From contig CADECW010000021.1 of NCBI GenBank assembly GCA_902825855.1, forward strand, positions 1-64,000: a stretch of 64,000 nucleotides of DNA. Direction: 5' to 3'. The position numbers and the translations under genes were made by a program. This document shows positions 8,227-36,481 of this stretch, piece by piece. A model generated the notes under the pieces. It was not told where the DNA came from, ran no database searches, and saw only the letters and a program-made list of their open reading frames with translations. The DNA is from an uncultured Rhodospirillales bacterium. Lineage in GTDB: Bacteria > Pseudomonadota > Alphaproteobacteria > Reyranellales > Reyranellaceae. Position 1 is the stretch's first letter. Every line of letters begins with the position of its first letter.

Positions 8227-8835
8227 CTAGCGGGCCGCTCTCAGGAGAGCATCGTAGTCGGCGCGCAGCAGGGCGAACAACAGGTGGTCGGCCCACTGGC
8301 CGTTGATGCGGAGGTACTGGCGGGCCAGCCCCTCCTCATGGAAACCGACCTTGGCCAGCACGGCCTTGGACGGCTCATTGTGGGGCAGACAGGCGGCCTC
8401 CAGGCGGTGCAGCCGGAGGTCGTCGAACACGAAGGGCAAGGTGGCGCGCAATCCGTCGGTCATCAGGCCCTGGCCGGCGTAGGGCTGGCCCATCCAGTAG
8501 CCGACCGAAGCGGCCTGGGCGACGCCGCGCCGGACGTTGCTGAGGTTGATGCCGCCAGCCAGCCGGCGCCCCTCGTTGGTGAAGATGAACAGGCCGTAAG
8601 CCTCGCCGGACCGCCATTCGCGGGCCTGCTGGCGGAGTCGGCGTCGGTAGTGGTCGCGGCCCAGGGAATCCTCCGGCCAAGTCGGTTCCCACGGCGTGAG
8701 AAAAGCCCGGCTGCGGGCCCTGAGCTCCGCCCATTCGGCCCAGTCGTCCATGGACGGAGCGCGCAAAAATACCCGCCGGCCGGCGATTCTGGTCATCCCG
8801 GACAGCGACAATGGGACATCGGCAAAGCGGAACAT
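8227..8835 (-). CDS. rimJ: GNAT N-acetyltransferase, RimJ-like
   Basis: This 202-residue GNAT protein resembles ribosomal-protein-alanine acetyltransferase RimJ. It has the characteristic start RVFLRAPSMDDWAEWAELR, an acceptor-loop PWEPTW, a central VGYWMGQPYAGQGLMTDGLRATLPFVF acetyl-CoA region, and the C-terminal EAACLPHNEPSKAVLAKVGFHEEG. RimJ acetylates the N-terminus of ribosomal protein S5; relatives modify other substrates. A -10-like TACTAT on the minus strand at 8844-8849 lies only 8 bp from the ATG and no Shine-Dalgarno is seen, so the mRNA may be nearly leaderless. Confidence 0.85.
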   Translation of the reverse strand: MFRFADVPLSLSGMTRIAGRRVFLRAPSMDDWAEWAELRARSRAFLTPWEPTWPEDSLGRDHYRRRLRQQAREWRSGEAYGLFIFTNEGRRLAGGINLSNVRRGVAQAASVGYWMGQPYAGQGLMTDGLRATLPFVFDDLRLHRLEAACLPHNEPSKAVLAKVGFHEEGLARQYLRINGQWADHLLFALLRADYDALLRAAR

Positions 8836-9002
8836 CTTGGTCTATAGTAATCCAGCTTTGGAATTGTTACATGTTTTCCGAGGCTTGACGTAGGAAATTG
8901 AGACTGTCAGCCGCGCAGCCTTATAGAGGCCAGGCCTTGAAAAGGCTCAACGGTGATATGAAATTCCCCCTCCTCACCTGAGGCATCCCGTTCAGGACAG
9001 CC

Positions 9003-9851
9003 ATGGAAACAGATAGGAACAGCAACGTCGGCCACAAAGGCCGCTTTTATCTGACCAAGAACATCTGGGTCCCGCAGGAGCCCATCGAGAAGCTCAATCT
9101 CAAGATGTCGGACATGATCCTGCGCCGCATGCCCAAGCTACCGCTGGGCGGCGAGGATGCGATCCGGGTCTTCCCGGTCCTGGCTGAGCTCAAGAAGAGC
9201 CACGACAAGATCAAGGCGGACCTCAACTACCTCTTGAGCCATCACGAGGAGATCCCGGCACTGCACGAGGTCCATCCCCGCGACCTGTTCGTGCCCGGTC
9301 GCGCCTGGCGCACCTTCCTGATCAAGATCTGGGGCCACGAGATCAAGGAGAACACCGCCGCGGTGCCGGATACCTACGAGGCGATCCAGCGCATCCCGGG
9401 CGTCCATACCGCTCTGTTCAGCATTCTCGCCGGCGGTGCGGAGATCGAGCCCCATCGCGGCTCGGCCGCCGGCGTGATCCGCTTCCACTATCCGCTGATC
9501 GTGCCGACCGAGCCTGAGAAGTGCTGGATCGAGATCGGCGGCCACCACTTCTTCTGGAAGGAAGGCGAGCCGTTGGTGTTCGACGACACGCGCGAGCATT
9601 GGGTCAAGAACCAGACCGCCGAGACGCGCGTGGTGCTGATCATCGACTTCAACGCCGACATGCCGTTCCCGGTGAACATCTACACCACGCTTCGCTACAA
9701 TCTGATCCGCCGCAGCGCCGAGGTCGCGGCCGTCAGGGAGCGCGCCGCCATCGGCGTGCCGCCGCGCAACCCGCCGCCGCCGAAGATGTCACAGGGCCTG
9801 ATCAGCATGGCGAGCCATACGACCTCGCCGGTGAACGTCGACCGCAGGTAG
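9003..9851 (+). CDS. Aspartyl/asparaginyl beta-hydroxylase family 2-oxoglutarate dioxygenase
   Basis: This 282-residue protein contains the Asp/Asn beta-hydroxylase cupin (LpxO/ASPH-like), an Fe(II)/2-oxoglutarate oxygenase fold. A first metal His is in EIEPHRGSAAG, a partner His in FDDTREHWVKNQ, and the 2-oxoglutarate-binding Arg in TRVVLIIDF. The N-terminal 100 residues are a less conserved extension. Bacterial relatives hydroxylate lipid A acyl chains, peptides or free amino acids, so the substrate is open. No membrane segment is seen. It stands alone, divergent from rimJ across about 165 bp and convergent with the YcjF-like gene. Confidence 0.85.
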   Translation: METDRNSNVGHKGRFYLTKNIWVPQEPIEKLNLKMSDMILRRMPKLPLGGEDAIRVFPVLAELKKSHDKIKADLNYLLSHHEEIPALHEVHPRDLFVPGRAWRTFLIKIWGHEIKENTAAVPDTYEAIQRIPGVHTALFSILAGGAEIEPHRGSAAGVIRFHYPLIVPTEPEKCWIEIGGHHFFWKEGEPLVFDDTREHWVKNQTAETRVVLIIDFNADMPFPVNIYTTLRYNLIRRSAEVAAVRERAAIGVPPRNPPPPKMSQGLISMASHTTSPVNVDRR

Positions 9852-9853
9852 GC

Positions 9854-10762
9854 TCAGCCGAGCGGCAGAGGGCGGATCTCGGCCCTCGCGACCGCTCCCA
9901 GTGCCAGCATCCGTCGCACGACGATGAGCGCCTCGCCGGCCGTGCCGACGACGGCGGCAGCCAGGCGATCCTGCGCCGCCTTCGTCGCGAATTCGATGGC
10001 GGTACTCATCAGCGCGGTCGAGGAGGCGAGGAACAGCGAACGGGTCATGACGCGGAACAGGCTGCGCAGGCTATGGCGCAGGCCATAGACGGCCATGAGG
10101 TCGCGAATCAGCATCACGCTCAGCACCAGAACCACGATTGCGTCGAGTGCCGGATGGGGACAGGACGACACGCCGAAGCCGGCGCGCAGTGCCGCCTTCT
10201 GGATGCGCTGGTCGGCCTCGCGATCCATCGCCTGGAAGACCTCGCGATTGAGCAGCTCGATCACGTCGCGGTCGGAGTGATGCGGCTGGAGCGCCAGCGC
10301 TGCGGCATTGAGCCGGCCCAGGATCAGCGGCTTGTCGGAATAGAGCGCGCGCAGGGCGCCGAGCAGCCGCATGCCACTGCCGGCACCGTCGAGCTTGGCG
10401 AGTTGCACTGCCATCTCGCGGGCGCGCTCCGCGGACTTGAGTTTGCGCAGCGCCCGCGTCTGGCGCGCGATAAGCCAGGCAAGCGAGCCCGACAGAACGA
10501 CCAGCGTGACGAAATAGAGGCCGTCCAGCACGCTGGCATCGCGGATCGCCTTTTCAGCCAGCGTCACCGCCGCGTTGACCACGATCAGGACCAGGATGAG
10601 GCTCGCCGAGCCCAGCGCAAGCCAGGCCGCCAGGCTCGGCCGCCCCTCGCCTCCGCTGCCGATCTGCACGTCCGGCGCGCCTGGCGTCGGTTCGGCGAGA
10701 GGCAGTTCGCCCGGCCGGAACTCGCGATCGACGAGCTGTCGATCGGTGGTCGATACAGTCAT
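9854..10762 (-). CDS. YcjF-like inner-membrane protein (TIGR01620/DUF697-type)
   Basis: This 302-residue protein has a charged N-terminal region of about 45 residues, then two membrane helices at about 46-68 and 83-101, a soluble helical segment, and a third hydrophobic pair near 205-260, as in YcjF proteins. It follows the YcjX-like ATPase by 25 bp on the same strand, the conserved ycjX-ycjF pairing. In enterobacteria these genes sit near the phage-shock locus, but the molecular role is not established. No psp genes are present here. Confidence 0.8.
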   Translation of the reverse strand: MTVSTTDRQLVDREFRPGELPLAEPTPGAPDVQIGSGGEGRPSLAAWLALGSASLILVLIVVNAAVTLAEKAIRDASVLDGLYFVTLVVLSGSLAWLIARQTRALRKLKSAERAREMAVQLAKLDGAGSGMRLLGALRALYSDKPLILGRLNAAALALQPHHSDRDVIELLNREVFQAMDREADQRIQKAALRAGFGVSSCPHPALDAIVVLVLSVMLIRDLMAVYGLRHSLRSLFRVMTRSLFLASSTALMSTAIEFATKAAQDRLAAAVVGTAGEALIVVRRMLALGAVARAEIRPLPLG

Positions 10763-10787
10763 GTCGTCTCCATGGGCCCGATGTCAT

Positions 10788-12173
10788 TCACCCGATCAGC
10801 GATTGCAGGACCTTGTCCAGATTTATGTGCGGCAGGGGCTTTTCGAAAGGCGCGCCGAGCTGCGGCGGCTCGAAATCCCTGATGTTGAACACGAAGCCCG
10901 GCCAGCTCTCCCGATCGGGGATCTGGCCAGGGATCTCGCCAGGGCGCACCTCGATGGCATCGGAACGGCCGCGCGGCACGCCGCGCAGGAACTGCAGGGC
11001 CTCGCCCTGCCATAGTCGGGTCGCCTGTGCGGTTGCCCGCACCGAAGCGATGGCCAGCAGGCCGGACTGCCGGGCATTGGCGCGCACGAACGGCTCGCCC
11101 AGCATGTCGCGCAGCAGCCCGACCAGGTTGTTGAGCTGACCCGACGTGATGTGGTCGGCCTTGGTCGCGACCAGCGACAGCCGATCGAGGCGGCCGATCG
11201 GCAGGATGCGGGCCAGCGGATGCTGCAGATCCTCGAACGCCTCGACGACCGTCCGCGTCGCGAGTGCGAGGTCGGCGAATGCTTCCTGGCCCTGCTGCAA
11301 TGCCGTCAACAGATCGACCAGCACGACCTGGCGGCGCAGCCGCCCGAACACCTGGTCGTAAAAGCGCTGGACCAGCCTGCGGTAAGCCTCGTAGCGCCGC
11401 GCCAGCGCCGCGCCGTTGGTACCCGCACGCGAGGAGCGCGCCCGGCTGAGCGGGAAGAACAGGGTATCGAGCGGCGCGGCGGCGCCGAGGAAGCGGCCCG
11501 GTTGCAGGAACGACAGGCCTTCGGACCGGCAGCGCTTCAGGTAGTCGACGTAGGCGCTGCCGATGTGGGCCAGCGCGAAGGGATCCTCATTCGCCGCCGG
11601 ATCGAGCGCCATGGCTTGCGCCAGCCACTCGGTCGACAGCGCCGAGCGCTTGCCGGAGTTGGCGAGTTCTTCCATCTCGGCCGACCACTCCTCGTAGTCG
11701 AGCGAGAGCAGCGGCAGGTCGAGCAGCCACTCGCCCGGATAGTCGATGAGATCGAGGTGCAGCGTGTGCGGCTCCAGCAGGCGCCGGTCGAGCCGCGACG
11801 GCGGTGCGAGGCGCAAGCGCACCCGGATTCCGCTCAGGCCGTCGGTTGGCTCCGGCCAGCGCGGTGGCTCGGCCAGTAGCTCGGCAAGGCGCTCGCGGTA
11901 GGGAAATGGCGGCAGCCCGGGAATGTCCCGCAGCTCGACCTCGCGCACGCGCTCGCGCCACGGAAAGAACGGAAAGGCCTCGACCGGTGCATCCTTGGCG
12001 TGCAGGAGAGCGTGCACGAAAGAAGTGACGAACACGGTCTTGCCCGAGCGTTGCAGGCCGGTGACGGCGATGCGATAGCCGGCGTGGTTCAATGGCGACA
12101 CACTCGCCAGTGCGGACGCGATGGCGTCGAGGGAATCTGCGGCAAGGCTGGGCAGCCGGGTCAGCGGTGACAT
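10788..12173 (-). CDS. YcjX-like P-loop GTP/ATP-binding protein
   Basis: This 461-residue protein carries a P-loop GLQRSGKT near residues 32-39, a YcjX-family DLIDYPGEWLLDLPL segment resembling a G3 motif, and VATKADH resembling the G4 base-recognition motif. I start it at the ATG ending at 12173 (MSPLTRLPSL). The frame stays open for 62 more codons, but that extension is basic and low in conservation and runs into the divergent TerB gene's upstream region. It is paired with the YcjF-like membrane protein. The biological role is unproven; a stress-related envelope function is inferred from the family. Confidence 0.88.
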   Translation of the reverse strand: MSPLTRLPSLAADSLDAIASALASVSPLNHAGYRIAVTGLQRSGKTVFVTSFVHALLHAKDAPVEAFPFFPWRERVREVELRDIPGLPPFPYRERLAELLAEPPRWPEPTDGLSGIRVRLRLAPPSRLDRRLLEPHTLHLDLIDYPGEWLLDLPLLSLDYEEWSAEMEELANSGKRSALSTEWLAQAMALDPAANEDPFALAHIGSAYVDYLKRCRSEGLSFLQPGRFLGAAAPLDTLFFPLSRARSSRAGTNGAALARRYEAYRRLVQRFYDQVFGRLRRQVVLVDLLTALQQGQEAFADLALATRTVVEAFEDLQHPLARILPIGRLDRLSLVATKADHITSGQLNNLVGLLRDMLGEPFVRANARQSGLLAIASVRATAQATRLWQGEALQFLRGVPRGRSDAIEVRPGEIPGQIPDRESWPGFVFNIRDFEPPQLGAPFEKPLPHINLDKVLQSLIG

Positions 12174-31810: not shown

Positions 31811-32170
31811 GGTACAGAGCGTGCTACTGCCAAGGAAACGGGGAACAACAAACTGTGGTGCACCGCAGCGAGCGTGTCACCTTCTTATGGTTCCGACGGA
31901 CGCACGGGCGTATCGGTGAAAGGACTTGGCGGTGCACCCGCCTCAGCAGTTCATATCCTCGAAAGCGATGGCCTGCCGCAGCGCACCAACCTTCGCTTGT
32001 CCGGCTTTGAAAACCACTAACACACCTCCTTCTCCACATCGATCGATTGACTCCCCCAAGCCGGAGTGAAACGATTTCAAGGACAAGGCTTCGCTCCGGA
32101 CGTGTTCGGCAGCGACCCACCTCCGGAGCTTGATTGGCGCAGACGAACGCGCAAGCAGGAGGACATTGTC
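31811..32170. other. Intergenic region upstream of the EF-G-like gene
   Basis: No credible gene is seen. The stretch separates the divergent small-gene cassette from the EF-G-like gene. A TTGACT at 32047-32052 could be a -35 element, but the -10 partner at 17 bp (AACGAT) is poor. Confidence 0.4.
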
Positions 32171-34246
32171 ATGAACGACATCAAATCCGAGACGATCCCT
32201 GGAGGCAGACCAGGCAGCGGCGCGCACCGCGTGGTGGCGCTGTGCGGGCCGTATCTCTCGGGTAAGACCAGCCTGCTCGAGAGCATCCTCTACGCCACGG
32301 GGGCCATCGGCCGGCGCGGTTCGACGCGCGCAGGCACCTCGATCGGCGACGGCGCCGCCGAAGCGCGCAAGCGCGGCATGGGCACCGAGCTCAACGTCGC
32401 CTCGGTCGACTATCTCGGCGATCAATGGACCTTCCTCGATGTCCCGGGCTCCATCGAGTTTCAGAACGACGCTTTCGCGGCGCTCGCCGTCTGCGACACG
32501 GCCGTTCTCGTCTGCGAGCCCGCGCCGGAGCGCGTCGTGGCGCTGACGCCGCTGCTGAAATTCATCGAAGACAACCACATCCCCCACATCATCTTCATCA
32601 ACAAGATCGATTCCGCCGAAGTCCGCGTGCGTGACATGCTGTCGGCGCTGCAATCGATCTCTTCGCGCAAGCTGTTGCTGCGCCAGGTGCCGATCCGCCA
32701 GGCCGCGTCCGACGGCAGCGACGAGACGGTGGGCTATGTCGACCTCGTGAGCGAGCGCGCCTACCGCTACAAGTCGAGCGGCGCCTCGGACCTCATCGAG
32801 ATGCCGGCCGAGATCCTGCCGCGCGAAAGCGAAGCCCGCCGCGAGATGCTCGAGACGCTGTCGGAGTTCGACGACCAGCTGCTCGAGCAGCTGATCGAGG
32901 ATATCGCACCCGAGAAATCGCTGATCTACCGCGACCTGCACGACGAGTTCGGCGCCGACCAGATCGCGCCCGTGCTGCTGGGCGCCGGTGATCGCGAGAA
33001 CGGCGTGCGCCGACTGCTGAAAGCCCTGCGCCACGACACGCCCTTCGTCGCCGAGACCGCCAAGCGGCGCTCGCTGCCGTCCAACGGCGTTGCCATGGCC
33101 GAGTGCTTCAAGGTCCTGCACCAGAGCCACGCCGGCAAGCTGTCGCTCTGCCGCGTCTGGTCGGGCAGCCTGGTCGAGGGCCAAAGCGTCGGCGGGCAGC
33201 GTATAGGCACGCTGCTCCGGCCGTTCGGCCAGCGTCTCGACAAGATCGGCGAGGCGAAGGCTGGCGAGATCGTGGCGTTGGCCAAGGCCGATGCGCTGTC
33301 GGGCGGCCAGTCGCTGTCGGCCGCAGGCATCGCCGCGAGCGAGGACTTCCCCAAGGCCGAGTCGCCGGTGTTCGCCCTGTCGCTGCGCGCCAAGAACCGC
33401 AATGACGAGGTCAAGCTGTCGGGCGCCCTGCACAAGATCGTCGAGGAGGATCCGTCGCTCTCCTTCGAGGCGCGCGGCGAGACCCACGAGCTGCTGCTCA
33501 AGGGCCAGGGCGAGATGCATCTCAAGGTCGCGGTCGACAAGCTCGCCGGCCGCTACAACGTCGCCGTCGATACCGAGACACCGCGCGTCGCCTACCGTGA
33601 GACCATCCAGGGCGGCAGCACGCAGCATGCCCGCTACAAGCGCCAGACCGGCGGGCACGGCCAGTTCGCCGACATCAAGGTCGAGATCAAGCCGCTGGCG
33701 CGCGGCTCGGGCTTCCGCTTCGTCGACAAGGTCGTGGGCGGCGTGGTGCCGCGCAACTTCATCCCGGCGGTCGAGGAAGGCCTGATCGACTACCTGAAGG
33801 AGGGCCCTCTCGGCCAACCGGTGGTCGACCTCGAGGTCACGCTGTTCGACGGCCAGTACCACTCCGTCGACAGCTCGGAAATGTCGTTCAAGATGGCCGC
33901 GCGCATCGCCATGAGCGAGGCCATGCCCAAATGCAAGCCGGTGCTGCTGGAGCCCATCCTCAAGGTGACGGTGGCGGCACCGAACGATGCAACGCCGCGC
34001 ATCCAGCGTCTCATCTCCGGCCGCCGCGGCCAGCTGCTGGGCTACGACGCCCGCGACGGCTGGAGCGGCTGGGACGAGGTTTCCGCGCTGATGCCGGAGG
34101 CCGAGATCGCCGACATGATCGTCGAGATCCGCTCGGTGACGCAGGGTGTCGGCACCTTCCGCACCGAATTCGACCATCTGCAGGAGCTGGTCGGACGGAC
34201 CGCCGAGCGCATCGTCGAGGAAACCAAGAAGCGCGCCGCGGCCTGA
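32171..34246 (+). CDS. Elongation factor G-like translational GTPase (EF-G paralogue)
   Basis: This 691-residue GTPase has EF-G domain order: a G domain, then domain II (HAGKLSLCRVWSGSLVEGQSV), III, IV (GHGQFADIKVEIKPL) and V. G1 is GPYLSGKT (26-33) and G4 is NKID (144-147). G3 reads DVPGS (90-94) instead of DTPGH, so the catalytic His is Ser94; the switch I sequence is also divergent (RGMGTELNVAS). This matches the EF-G-like/EF-G2 class rather than the main elongation factor. The function is unknown. AGGAGG 8 bp before ATG 32171 fixes the start. Confidence 0.88.
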   Translation: MNDIKSETIPGGRPGSGAHRVVALCGPYLSGKTSLLESILYATGAIGRRGSTRAGTSIGDGAAEARKRGMGTELNVASVDYLGDQWTFLDVPGSIEFQNDAFAALAVCDTAVLVCEPAPERVVALTPLLKFIEDNHIPHIIFINKIDSAEVRVRDMLSALQSISSRKLLLRQVPIRQAASDGSDETVGYVDLVSERAYRYKSSGASDLIEMPAEILPRESEARREMLETLSEFDDQLLEQLIEDIAPEKSLIYRDLHDEFGADQIAPVLLGAGDRENGVRRLLKALRHDTPFVAETAKRRSLPSNGVAMAECFKVLHQSHAGKLSLCRVWSGSLVEGQSVGGQRIGTLLRPFGQRLDKIGEAKAGEIVALAKADALSGGQSLSAAGIAASEDFPKAESPVFALSLRAKNRNDEVKLSGALHKIVEEDPSLSFEARGETHELLLKGQGEMHLKVAVDKLAGRYNVAVDTETPRVAYRETIQGGSTQHARYKRQTGGHGQFADIKVEIKPLARGSGFRFVDKVVGGVVPRNFIPAVEEGLIDYLKEGPLGQPVVDLEVTLFDGQYHSVDSSEMSFKMAARIAMSEAMPKCKPVLLEPILKVTVAAPNDATPRIQRLISGRRGQLLGYDARDGWSGWDEVSALMPEAEIADMIVEIRSVTQGVGTFRTEFDHLQELVGRTAERIVEETKKRAAA

Positions 34247-34288: not shown

Positions 34289-34312
34289 GCAGCCAAATGC
34301 GGCCCCCATAGT

Positions 34313-34341
34313 TTCTCCTATGGAGTCGTTCCATAGGAGAA
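34313..34341 (+). promoter_or_regulatory. Inverted repeat that would sequester the selenoprotein ribosome-binding site
   Basis: A perfect 12-bp inverted repeat, TTCTCCTATGGA (34313-34324) and TCCATAGGAGAA (34330-34341), encloses a 5-base loop. The right arm contains AGGAGA (34335-34340), the Shine-Dalgarno for the ATG at 34347. Folding of the leader would block initiation, suggesting translational control. A promoter or operator role of the DNA palindrome is also possible. Confidence 0.6.
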
Positions 34342-34346
34342 TGTTC

Positions 34347-34781
34347 ATGTTCAACAGGAGGTCCATGATGGTAGGTGGCCTGGCGATGGCCACCGCACCG
34401 TCATTGACACGCATCGCGCAAGCCCAGTCCGGGAAGCCGATGCTGGTGTTCGTCGGTCACGAACTTTGAGGTGGCTGCAAGATCTGGCGTGCCCAGTCTG
34501 AACCCGACTTCGTCAAATCGGACGCAGCCAAGAAGCTCGCCTATCGTGTCGTCCATCCGGCCAATGTGACACTGGTTCTGAAAGAAGAGAACTGGCCAGC
34601 CGACTCGCTGTGGGTCCGCGCCGCCTTCCTCGACAGCGACGAAGGAAAGTCCCGGCCCGACGCGACCCCGCGCTTCATCCTCGCCCAGGACGGCAAGGTG
34701 ATCCTCGCAGTCACCGGCAATGCCGGCTGGAAAGAAAAGATGTGGCCCAAGATCCAGGAAATCACTGGGACCAAGGCCTGA
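34347..34781 (+). CDS. Probable selenoprotein: exported thioredoxin-fold protein with UGGC active site (in-frame TGA read as Sec)
   Basis: This frame encodes 144 residues with a single internal TGA (34467-34469) at residue 41. A signal peptide with a twin arginine (NRRSMMVGGLA, cleavage near AQA-QS) precedes a thioredoxin-like domain: strand MLVFVG, then U41-G-G-C44 where a CxxC redox site belongs, and the cis-Pro strand DATPRFILAQDGKVI. Coding bias continues without other stops to TGA 34779. A SECIS-like hairpin follows the TGA. AGGAGA 6 bp before ATG 34347 sets the start. The alternative is a pseudogene made by a Cys-to-stop mutation. No sel genes lie in the window. Confidence 0.8.
34467..34499 (+). 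promoter_or_regulatory. Bacterial SECIS-like element at the in-frame TGA
   Basis: Counting the T of TGA as 1, AGA (14-16) pairs with TCT (31-33), U17 is bulged, CTGG (18-21) pairs with CCAG (27-30), and the loop CGTGC (22-26) carries G23 and U24. The bulged U17 and loop G23-U24 are the residues recognised by SelB in the E. coli fdhF SECIS. The UGA-to-loop spacing of 18 nt is in the normal range. Confidence 0.8.
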
Positions 34782-34791
34782 CTATCAGCCC

Positions 34792-34912
34792 CGTCATCCC
34801 GACCGGAGCCGACCGCAGCGAGGCGAAGTGGAGGGACCCGCTCTGTTGATGCGCCGGCCAGAAGAGGTCCCTCGGCTACGCCACCCTTCGGGCGGCTTCG
34901 CTCGGGATGACG
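34792..34912. repeat. Nested palindromic intergenic repeat
   Basis: CGTCATCCCGA (34792-34802) pairs with TCGGGATGACG (34902-34912), and GAGGGACC (34831-34838) pairs with GGTCCCTC (34866-34873), giving a long cruciform-like unit. Such GTCATCCCGA-bounded elements are a familiar dispersed intergenic repeat type in alphaproteobacteria. Only one copy is seen in this window. Confidence 0.65.
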
Positions 34913-34946
34913 ATGGGGCGCATGTTGTGACGAAGGAGTGCTGGTC

Positions 34947-35459
34947 ATGACCAACGAGCTATTCCGCAATCAACTCGCATCCTACGCGTCGGTGCATCGC
35001 GACTGGCGCAACAAGGCAACTCACTTCGTCGGCATCCCGGTCATCGTTTTCTCGCTGCTGCTGCTGCTGTCGTTGTGGCGCTTCGAGCTCGGCGACCGGC
35101 AGTTCACGCTTTCGCTGGCCGTCGCCATCATCGCGCTATTGGGCTGGATGGCGCTCGATCTCGGCATCGGCATCGTCATGGCCCTGCTCATGGCGGTTGC
35201 GTGGTACGCCGCGGCAGCCTTCGCCGGCGCGCTGGGCTCGCCGCAGGCGGTGTGGATCGCCTTCATGGCGCTGTTCGTCGGCGGCTGGGTGCTGCAGTTC
35301 CTCGGCCACCACTACGAAGGCAAGCGGCCGGCGCTGATCGACAATATCTTCCAGGCCTTCATCGGGCCGATGTTCCTGGTCGCCGAAGCCATGGTGATGT
35401 TGGGCCAGCGCCGCGATCTCGCCGAGCTCATGGGCGAAGGCGACGTCACGGCGCGGTGA
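34947..35459 (+). CDS. DUF962/Mpo1-like membrane protein
   Basis: This 170-residue protein has about four membrane helices and both DUF962 motifs: HRDWRNKATHFVGIPVIVFS near residue 17 and LQFLGHHYEGKRPAL near 118. The histidines correspond to those that bind Fe(II) in yeast Mpo1, a dioxygenase that shortens 2-hydroxy fatty acids; the bacterial role is not established. GAAGGAG (34932-34938) 8 bp before ATG 34947 supports this start over the GTG at 34938. Confidence 0.85.
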   Translation: MTNELFRNQLASYASVHRDWRNKATHFVGIPVIVFSLLLLLSLWRFELGDRQFTLSLAVAIIALLGWMALDLGIGIVMALLMAVAWYAAAAFAGALGSPQAVWIAFMALFVGGWVLQFLGHHYEGKRPALIDNIFQAFIGPMFLVAEAMVMLGQRRDLAELMGEGDVTAR

Positions 35460-35524: not shown

Positions 35525-36481
35525 ATGCTGATCAAGCGCAAACGCGACTGGGAATTGGGCGAAAAAGAGGCGACGCCGGAAAGCCTCTATCTGCGGCGCC
35601 GGTCCCTGGTGAAGGGAATGGGTTTGGGCGCGGCCTCGCTCGCCCTTCCCGCCATCGCCGCCGCGCAGGACAAGGATCCGTCGGCGGCCCTCTATCCTGC
35701 CAGGCGCAACGACAGGTACGGCGTGCCGACGCCGATGACCGGCGAAAAGCTGGCCACGACCTACAACAACTTCTACGAATTCGGCACCGACAAGAGCATC
35801 TGGCGCGACGCCCAGAAGCTCGAAGTCCGCCCATGGACCATCAAGGTCTCGGGCATGGTCGAGAAGCCGTTCGAGATCGGCATCGACGACCTTCTGGCCA
35901 AGGTGCAGCTCGAGGAACGCGTCTACCGTCACCGCTGCGTAGAGACGTGGTCGATGATCGTGCCGTGGAGCGGCTTTCCGATGCGCTCCCTCGTCGAACT
36001 GTGCAAGCCGACGAGCAGCGCCAAATTCGTGGTGATGAAGACGCTCAGCAAGCCGGCGGTGATGCGCGAGCAGCGCGACCCGCTTTATCCCTGGCCCTAC
36101 ACCGAGGGGCTGGCGATGGACGAGGCGATGAACGATCTCACCTTCATCGCCACCGGCCTCTACGGCAAGCCGATCCACAAGCAGAACGGCGCGCCGCTGC
36201 GCCTGGTGGCGCCGTGGAAGTACGGCTTCAAGAACGTGAAGTCGATCGTCTCGCTCGAATTCAGCGACAAGCGGCCGGTCTCGTTCTGGGAAAGACTGCA
36301 GTCGAGCGAGTACGGCTTCTGGGCCAACGTCAATCCGCAGGTGCCGCATCCGCGCTGGAGCCAGGCGACCGAGAAGCCCCTGGGGAGCGACGAGCGGATC
36401 CCGACCCTGCTCTACAACGGCTACGGCGAGTTCGTGGCCGGGCTGTACGCCGACCGCAAAGCGGAAAAGCTCTTCATGTAG
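35525..36481 (+). CDS. msrP: Protein-methionine-sulfoxide reductase catalytic subunit MsrP (YedY)
   Basis: This 318-residue periplasmic molybdopterin enzyme reduces methionine sulfoxide in exported proteins. A Tat signal RRRSLVKGMGLGAASLALP (residues 24-42) ends near AAAQ. The sulfite-oxidase-fold Mo ligand is Cys138 in YRHRCVETWSM. The family-specific C-terminal block YNGYGEFVAGLYADR is present. The haem membrane partner MsrQ, usually adjacent, is not encoded here, so electron delivery must come from elsewhere. It lies two genes after the exported thioredoxin-like selenoprotein, possibly a related redox function. Confidence 0.95.
   Translation: MLIKRKRDWELGEKEATPESLYLRRRSLVKGMGLGAASLALPAIAAAQDKDPSAALYPARRNDRYGVPTPMTGEKLATTYNNFYEFGTDKSIWRDAQKLEVRPWTIKVSGMVEKPFEIGIDDLLAKVQLEERVYRHRCVETWSMIVPWSGFPMRSLVELCKPTSSAKFVVMKTLSKPAVMREQRDPLYPWPYTEGLAMDEAMNDLTFIATGLYGKPIHKQNGAPLRLVAPWKYGFKNVKSIVSLEFSDKRPVSFWERLQSSEYGFWANVNPQVPHPRWSQATEKPLGSDERIPTLLYNGYGEFVAGLYADRKAEKLFM

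Follow-up and report, generated by a model that had tools for sequence, protein, structure and literature searches.

A probable selenoprotein gene encoding a thioredoxin-fold protein upstream of msrP in Reyranellaceae

The locus and its reading frame

The window (the whole stretch of DNA analysed, 64,000 nucleotides) carries the following features around the gene of interest, all on the forward strand.

32066–34246, +: EF-G-type GTPase, conserved upstream neighbour (NF009379, E 6e-289; synteny)
34312–34342, +: leader palindrome/hairpin with the Shine-Dalgarno sequence AGGAG (34335–34339) in its 3' arm; similar palindromes precede the Sec1 and Ser genes of relatives
34347–34781, +: predicted selenoprotein CDS of 144 aa, with the TGA of codon 41 as Sec and a terminal stop that is also TGA (34779–34781) (translation, relatives)
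34347–34427, +: Tat-like signal peptide carrying the pair R4-R5, with AQA(Q) at its end (R4, R5 and A26 invariant)
34467–34469, +: UGA codon 41, putative Sec (U of UGGC); codon identical in 19/19 relatives and in 65 non-redundant sequences, TGC/TGT in Cys homologues
34476–34478, +: Cys44 codon TGC, predicted resolving thiol of UGGC; invariant in the 52-row family alignment
34480–34499, +: predicted bacterial SECIS hairpin, pairs 14–16/31–33 and 18–21/27–30, bulged U17, 5-nt loop CGUGC (folding, synonymous constraint, covariation)
34488–34490, +: Arg48 codon CGT, source of loop G23-U24; CGT in 65/65 sec1, 9/9 sec2, 2/42 Ser paralogues and 0/10 Cys homologues
34668–34670, +: Pro108 (TPRF), where the thioredoxin fold has its cis-Pro; no substitution in A1 or A3, AF2 model
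34938–35459, +: Mpo1-like protein, frequent downstream neighbour (PF06127, E 3.9e-18)
35525–36481, +: msrP, catalytic subunit of the periplasmic protein-methionine-sulfoxide reductase, conserved downstream neighbour (NF003767, E 2.8e-127, 424 bits against a cut-off of 207)

The first-pass annotation had described a continuous frame broken by one TGA, and this codon (34467–34469, codon 41) is indeed the single internal stop of 34347–34781. Translation through it gives 144 residues, MFNRRSMMVGG...MLVFVGHEL-U-GGCKIWRAQSEPDF...TPRFILAQDG...TKA, in which the redox motif U41-G-G-C44 stands directly after the strand MLVFVG and TPRFILAQDG lies further downstream, again as had been reported. In the leaders of the window gene and of its relatives, the palindrome arms vary but stay complementary, with a conserved CATAnT 5' of them; these palindromes are found before Sec genes as well as before Ser genes (the paralogues described below), and could act in sequestering the ribosome site or in binding a regulator. 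On the other side of the gene, the intergenic stretch 34786–34920 has inverted ends (CCCGTCATCCCGA...TCGGGATGACG), occupies the site of the relatives' Ser paralogue, and looks like a dispersed palindromic element.

Conservation of the TGA and of the hairpin behind it

Scanning 84,980 species genomes yielded 19 relatives (tblastn identity 55–93%), and in each of the 19 a TGA occupies codon 41 and no other codon; random stops elsewhere in the gene, which the first-pass annotation had named as grounds for giving up its reading, are thus not what relatives carry. Within the order, 68 of the 76 genomes have the gene with one TGA at codon 41, while the remaining eight have Cys41 instead (G009), only the Ser paralogue (G063, G070), or no close copy (G001, G002, G006, G048, G064). 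Positions 41 and 44 read TGA...TGC in every one of the 65 non-redundant full sequences, and the placement of the TGA is far beyond chance. A CxxC thioredoxin gene of the usual kind, hit by a nonsense mutation or misread in sequencing, would show a single stop like this one in a single genome, and one relative does have a Cys copy broken by TAG (L108); however, the same codon is fixed across the order at the frequency just given, and the protein sequence is under purifying selection both 5' and 3' of it, so that we regard a pseudogene or assembly error as improbable in the extreme, in line with the original argument against random mutation. Sequencing error is excluded because the TGA-bearing relatives include an isolate genome, that of Reyranella soli NBRC 108950. 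Searches at the level of class and phylum, with scoring limited to 10 candidates at most in each genome, gave one weak stop-free match (37 bits) and one short fragment outside Reyranellaceae among 385 genomes of the class, and partial matches alone (~23 bits or less) among 398 genomes of the phylum; a search for plasmid-borne relatives found none.

Numbered from the T of the TGA, the nucleotides that follow can pair at 14–16/31–33 and 18–21/27–30, with U17 bulged and C22-G23-U24-G25-C26 in the loop, a structure matching the one first described (bulged U17, 4-bp upper stem, G23-U24 in the loop). The E. coli fdhF SECIS has a bulged U17, a 4-bp upper stem and G-U in its loop, and further resembles the present hairpin in its location soon after the UGA and in its 18 nt from UGA to loop. 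Bacterial SECIS elements are defined by an apical loop of 3–9 nt with G in its first two positions, a stem of at least 4 bp, a distance of 16–37 nt from the UGA and an MFE of –7.5 or lower; the corresponding values here are a 5-nt loop (CGUGC), 4 + 3 bp, 18 nt and –7.7 kcal/mol. The bSECIS consensus agrees with a hairpin close to the UGA and a G-U loop (PMC13188914). What sets our hairpin apart from both the E. coli fdhF SECIS and this consensus is the 5-nt loop CGUGC and the variable bulged base in a sister family, sec2, as detailed below.

The energy of the hairpin is unexceptional against shuffled sequences (z = +1.0), which we counted against the Sec reading, and because folding energy alone gives no support we took conservation as the evidence. 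Despite a G+C-rich genome, 65/65 sequences use CGT for Arg48, the codon that forms loop C22-G23-U24, although CGT makes up only 12% of Arg codons in the window's large ORFs and 8% of those at the other Arg positions of these genes, CGC being far commoner. The six multi-codon positions 44–46 and 48–50 show no synonymous variation at all and position 43 shows little, so that the mean is 0.05 bit over positions 43–50 vs. 0.87 bit for the 46 conserved columns elsewhere. In the Ser genes, pairs 14-33, 15-32 and 21-27 are largely gone.

A second, distant family, sec2 (motif UGPC, ~30% identical), is represented by 10 copies in eight Reyranella-group genomes (L111–L118, L130, L188; e.g., L113:1501–1932, + strand). 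Its members carry TGA at the aligned codon, and the loop codon is CGT in the nine that were found first and in the tenth. Between sec1 and sec2 the lower stem has changed in a compensatory manner, from A-U to C-G at 16-31 and from G-C to A-U at 15-32. Taking the two families together (19 distinct rows), we counted 14 double changes and obtained a covariation score of 0.261 (vs. 0.136); none of 500 shuffles and no slid control came as high, although the rows are kin and the counts do not stand for independent events. Position 17 is other than U in seven of nine sec2 copies, which we counted against the Sec reading; the bulged U that is the rule in E. coli is thus no general feature in these families. 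Taken as a whole, this pattern of codon usage and pairing shows selection at the RNA level on the predicted hairpin after the UGA.

Selenocysteine machinery and the exchange of residue 41

All four genes that the first-pass annotation had proposed to look for are present in the host genome: selA (10489–11580), selB (8597–10444) and the tRNA-Sec gene selC (8397–8492; anticodon TCA, i.e., UCA) form one cluster on contig C38, and selD is on C29. Of the order's 76 genomes, 69 have a recognisable SelA; among the 68 gene carriers the number is 63, and two of the five carriers in which SelA was not found have SelB. The three carriers showing neither protein, all fragmented assemblies (60–96% complete), were counted against the Sec reading, as were seven genomes that retain SelA or SelB without the Sec gene; further Sec users must therefore exist in Reyranellaceae. 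In G001, the order's outgroup genome, the gene, SelA and SelB are all absent. The gap between selA and selB is 45 bp in the window genome vs. ~0.8–2 kb in G064, G070 and G002 (L146–L148).

Selenocysteine in Alphaproteobacteria has been viewed as serving mainly formate dehydrogenase (PMC8124441). In the host genome, three full-length Fdh-alpha-type matches are without an in-frame stop, as is selD; gene 34347–34781 is therefore the only Sec user identified among the genes examined.

Residue 41 is Sec, Cys or Ser depending on the homologue, that is, there are the Sec and Cys forms that had been suggested as worth looking for, and Ser besides. Ten sequences have Cys41, among them a syntenic one (L107), and both the Cys41 copy of G009 and the TAG-broken Cys41 copy of G071 (L108) lie between EF-G and Mpo1/msrP: Sec and Cys are exchanged at one syntenic locus. 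G071 has its Sec copy elsewhere (L100) than this broken copy. In some relatives a tandem paralogue has TCG, TCC or TCA in place of the Sec codon (L015:6514–6954, L009:6624–7061, L045:2116–2559); these Ser paralogues form a single clade, mostly retain Cys44 (SEAC), have a decayed SECIS, and in two genomes occur without a Sec gene (L109, L110), while the window genome has none. The tree nests one Ser clade (100/100) among Sec sequences, at forks of moderate support, and the simplest reading of it is one change from Sec to Ser following tandem duplication. On the same tree sec2 is a clade by itself, and the Cys homologues mostly fall outside both groups.

A UGA can be passed in other ways, by near-cognate decoding as Trp, Cys or Arg, or it may end a regulated short product. 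Bacteria are known to read through UGA, and the insertion of Sec at codon 41 is something we infer; but the genome has the complete SelABCD set, the genes with Ser or Cys as residue 41 are precisely those in which the SECIS constraint is relaxed, and homologues have Cys at that site, which together leave this explanation very little room. Genome-wide reassignment of UGA was rejected, since the gene itself ends in TGA as an ordinary stop and most relatives likewise end in an ordinary stop. Having counted TGA conservation, selABCD, the SECIS constraint, the covariation with sec2 and the Sec/Cys exchange in its favour, we consider Sec insertion at codon 41 highly probable, and the original reading of the TGA as selenocysteine is strongly supported by the conserved TGA, selABCD, SECIS selection and Sec/Cys exchange. 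SelB with Sec-tRNA(UCA) would recognise the hairpin 14–33 nt after the UGA through its loop G23-U24, and the complex would then place selenocysteine at residue 41.

Fold, gene context and possible role

No model of Pfam-A or NCBIfam matched the selenoprotein family above its curated cut-off: the sole NCBIfam match of any A1 member, with E 0.24, was to an unrelated family, and Pfam thioredoxin-type matches were at E 0.018 or worse, under cut-off. Of the 119 families of prokaryotic selenoproteins catalogued in a 2026 review, several are UxxC thioredoxin-like (PMC13188914), and none of the 119 has UGGC or fits by motif and domain identifier, a comparison made on those two properties and not on the representative sequences. 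Known UxxC selenoproteins, namely Trx (PF00085), thiol:disulfide interchange (PF13098), DsbG-like (NF041057), SaoT (NF040730), HUIPC (NF047660) and GOS_C (NF045500), share with the present protein Sec as the first residue of UxxC, and differ from it in lacking UGGC and in that it matches no library model above cut-off. Among the papers covered by the literature search, none was relevant to Reyranella selenoproteins or to UGGC selenoproteins. The product is thus very probably a real selenoprotein, and apparently of an uncatalogued family, as set apart by motif and domain identifier, and the novelty first claimed for it agrees with the empty Pfam, NCBIfam and 119-family comparisons.

AlphaFold2, given the 52-row family alignment, modelled the mature domain with pLDDT ~97 (pTM 0.76), placing (C/U)xxC at the start of a helix with the cis-Pro opposite; C44 and P108 are invariant in the 52 sequences. 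In the VIA-align 2 comparison the first rank, tied with other thioredoxins, went to SoxS, a periplasmic thioredoxin (Z 9.9, rmsd 2.8, 92 aligned residues, 18% identity). The thioredoxin-like domain with a cis-Pro strand proposed from the sequence is thus seen in the model as well. SoxS of Paracoccus pantotrophus (PDB 3dml, 3d4t), the best structural match, is likewise periplasmic with a thioredoxin fold and a single CxxC site, but has Cys and belongs to a sox operon, whereas our protein has Sec and an msrP context. Identity with SoxS was rejected, as sox linkage is absent and the identified neighbours are EF-G, Mpo1-like, MsrP, TctC and enoyl-CoA hydratase. Pfam TAT_signal matched 12 of 20 members, all under cut-off; with its RR signal peptide the protein is most likely exported by Tat.

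The conserved block reads EF-G, Sec gene, (Ser paralogue), (Mpo1-like), msrP. Of 85 loci (with duplicates among the records), 78 have msrP downstream on the same strand, and in nine it is directly next, at 7–149 bp, a spacing from which the two genes are probably co-transcribed. In most relatives the Sec gene stands immediately, or almost immediately, upstream of msrP, which recalls MsrP/MsrQ envelope repair; the described MsrPQ system, however, does not include a selenoprotein, and the MsrQ-like gene is not at this locus. A role in envelope oxidative repair is our best functional guess, because NF003767 makes the neighbour MsrP, the periplasmic methionine-sulfoxide reductase, and the selenoprotein may work functionally with MsrP, though we put this somewhat short of an even chance. 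That it feeds MsrP for want of MsrQ is weakened by an MsrQ-like gene elsewhere in the genome (118.6 bits, cut-off 130).

It is moderately likely that the product is a periplasmic thiol/selenol oxidoreductase, in which Sec41 would be the attacking selenolate and Cys44 the resolving thiol of the U-G-G-C site; the direction and the substrate of the redox reaction we likewise infer. Expression with msrP would probably make it part of an envelope oxidative-damage repair set. Sec might instead be inserted into a protein that is no reductase, such as a disulfide oxidase or isomerase, a peroxidase, or a chaperone or metal-binding partner of neighbouring proteins. The closest fold, SoxS, is a specialised periplasmic thioredoxin at only 18% identity, and the tandem Ser paralogue suggests non-standard chemistry, but the thioredoxin fold, the conserved UxxC and the cis-Pro favour thiol-disulfide chemistry generally; we give such a non-reductase role appreciable, if minor, weight. 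More speculatively, the Sec thioredoxin, its Ser (SxxC) paralogue and MsrP might form a co-expressed envelope redox module, with the Ser partner doing chemistry beyond that of the Sec protein, and this selenoprotein, not formate dehydrogenase, might be the main reason that Reyranellaceae keep the Sec system, a proposal we hold tentatively and think rather unlikely as it stands.

Two selenoprotein families, with UGGC and the related UGPC, would thus have been missed by the libraries and by the 2026 catalogue, in a widespread soil and freshwater lineage where gene callers would truncate or drop the gene. Selenocysteine would be tied through msrP to envelope oxidative-damage repair in aerobic Alphaproteobacteria, and the tandem Sec/Ser pair together with the syntenic Sec/Cys exchange would offer a natural experiment on the retention or loss of Sec.
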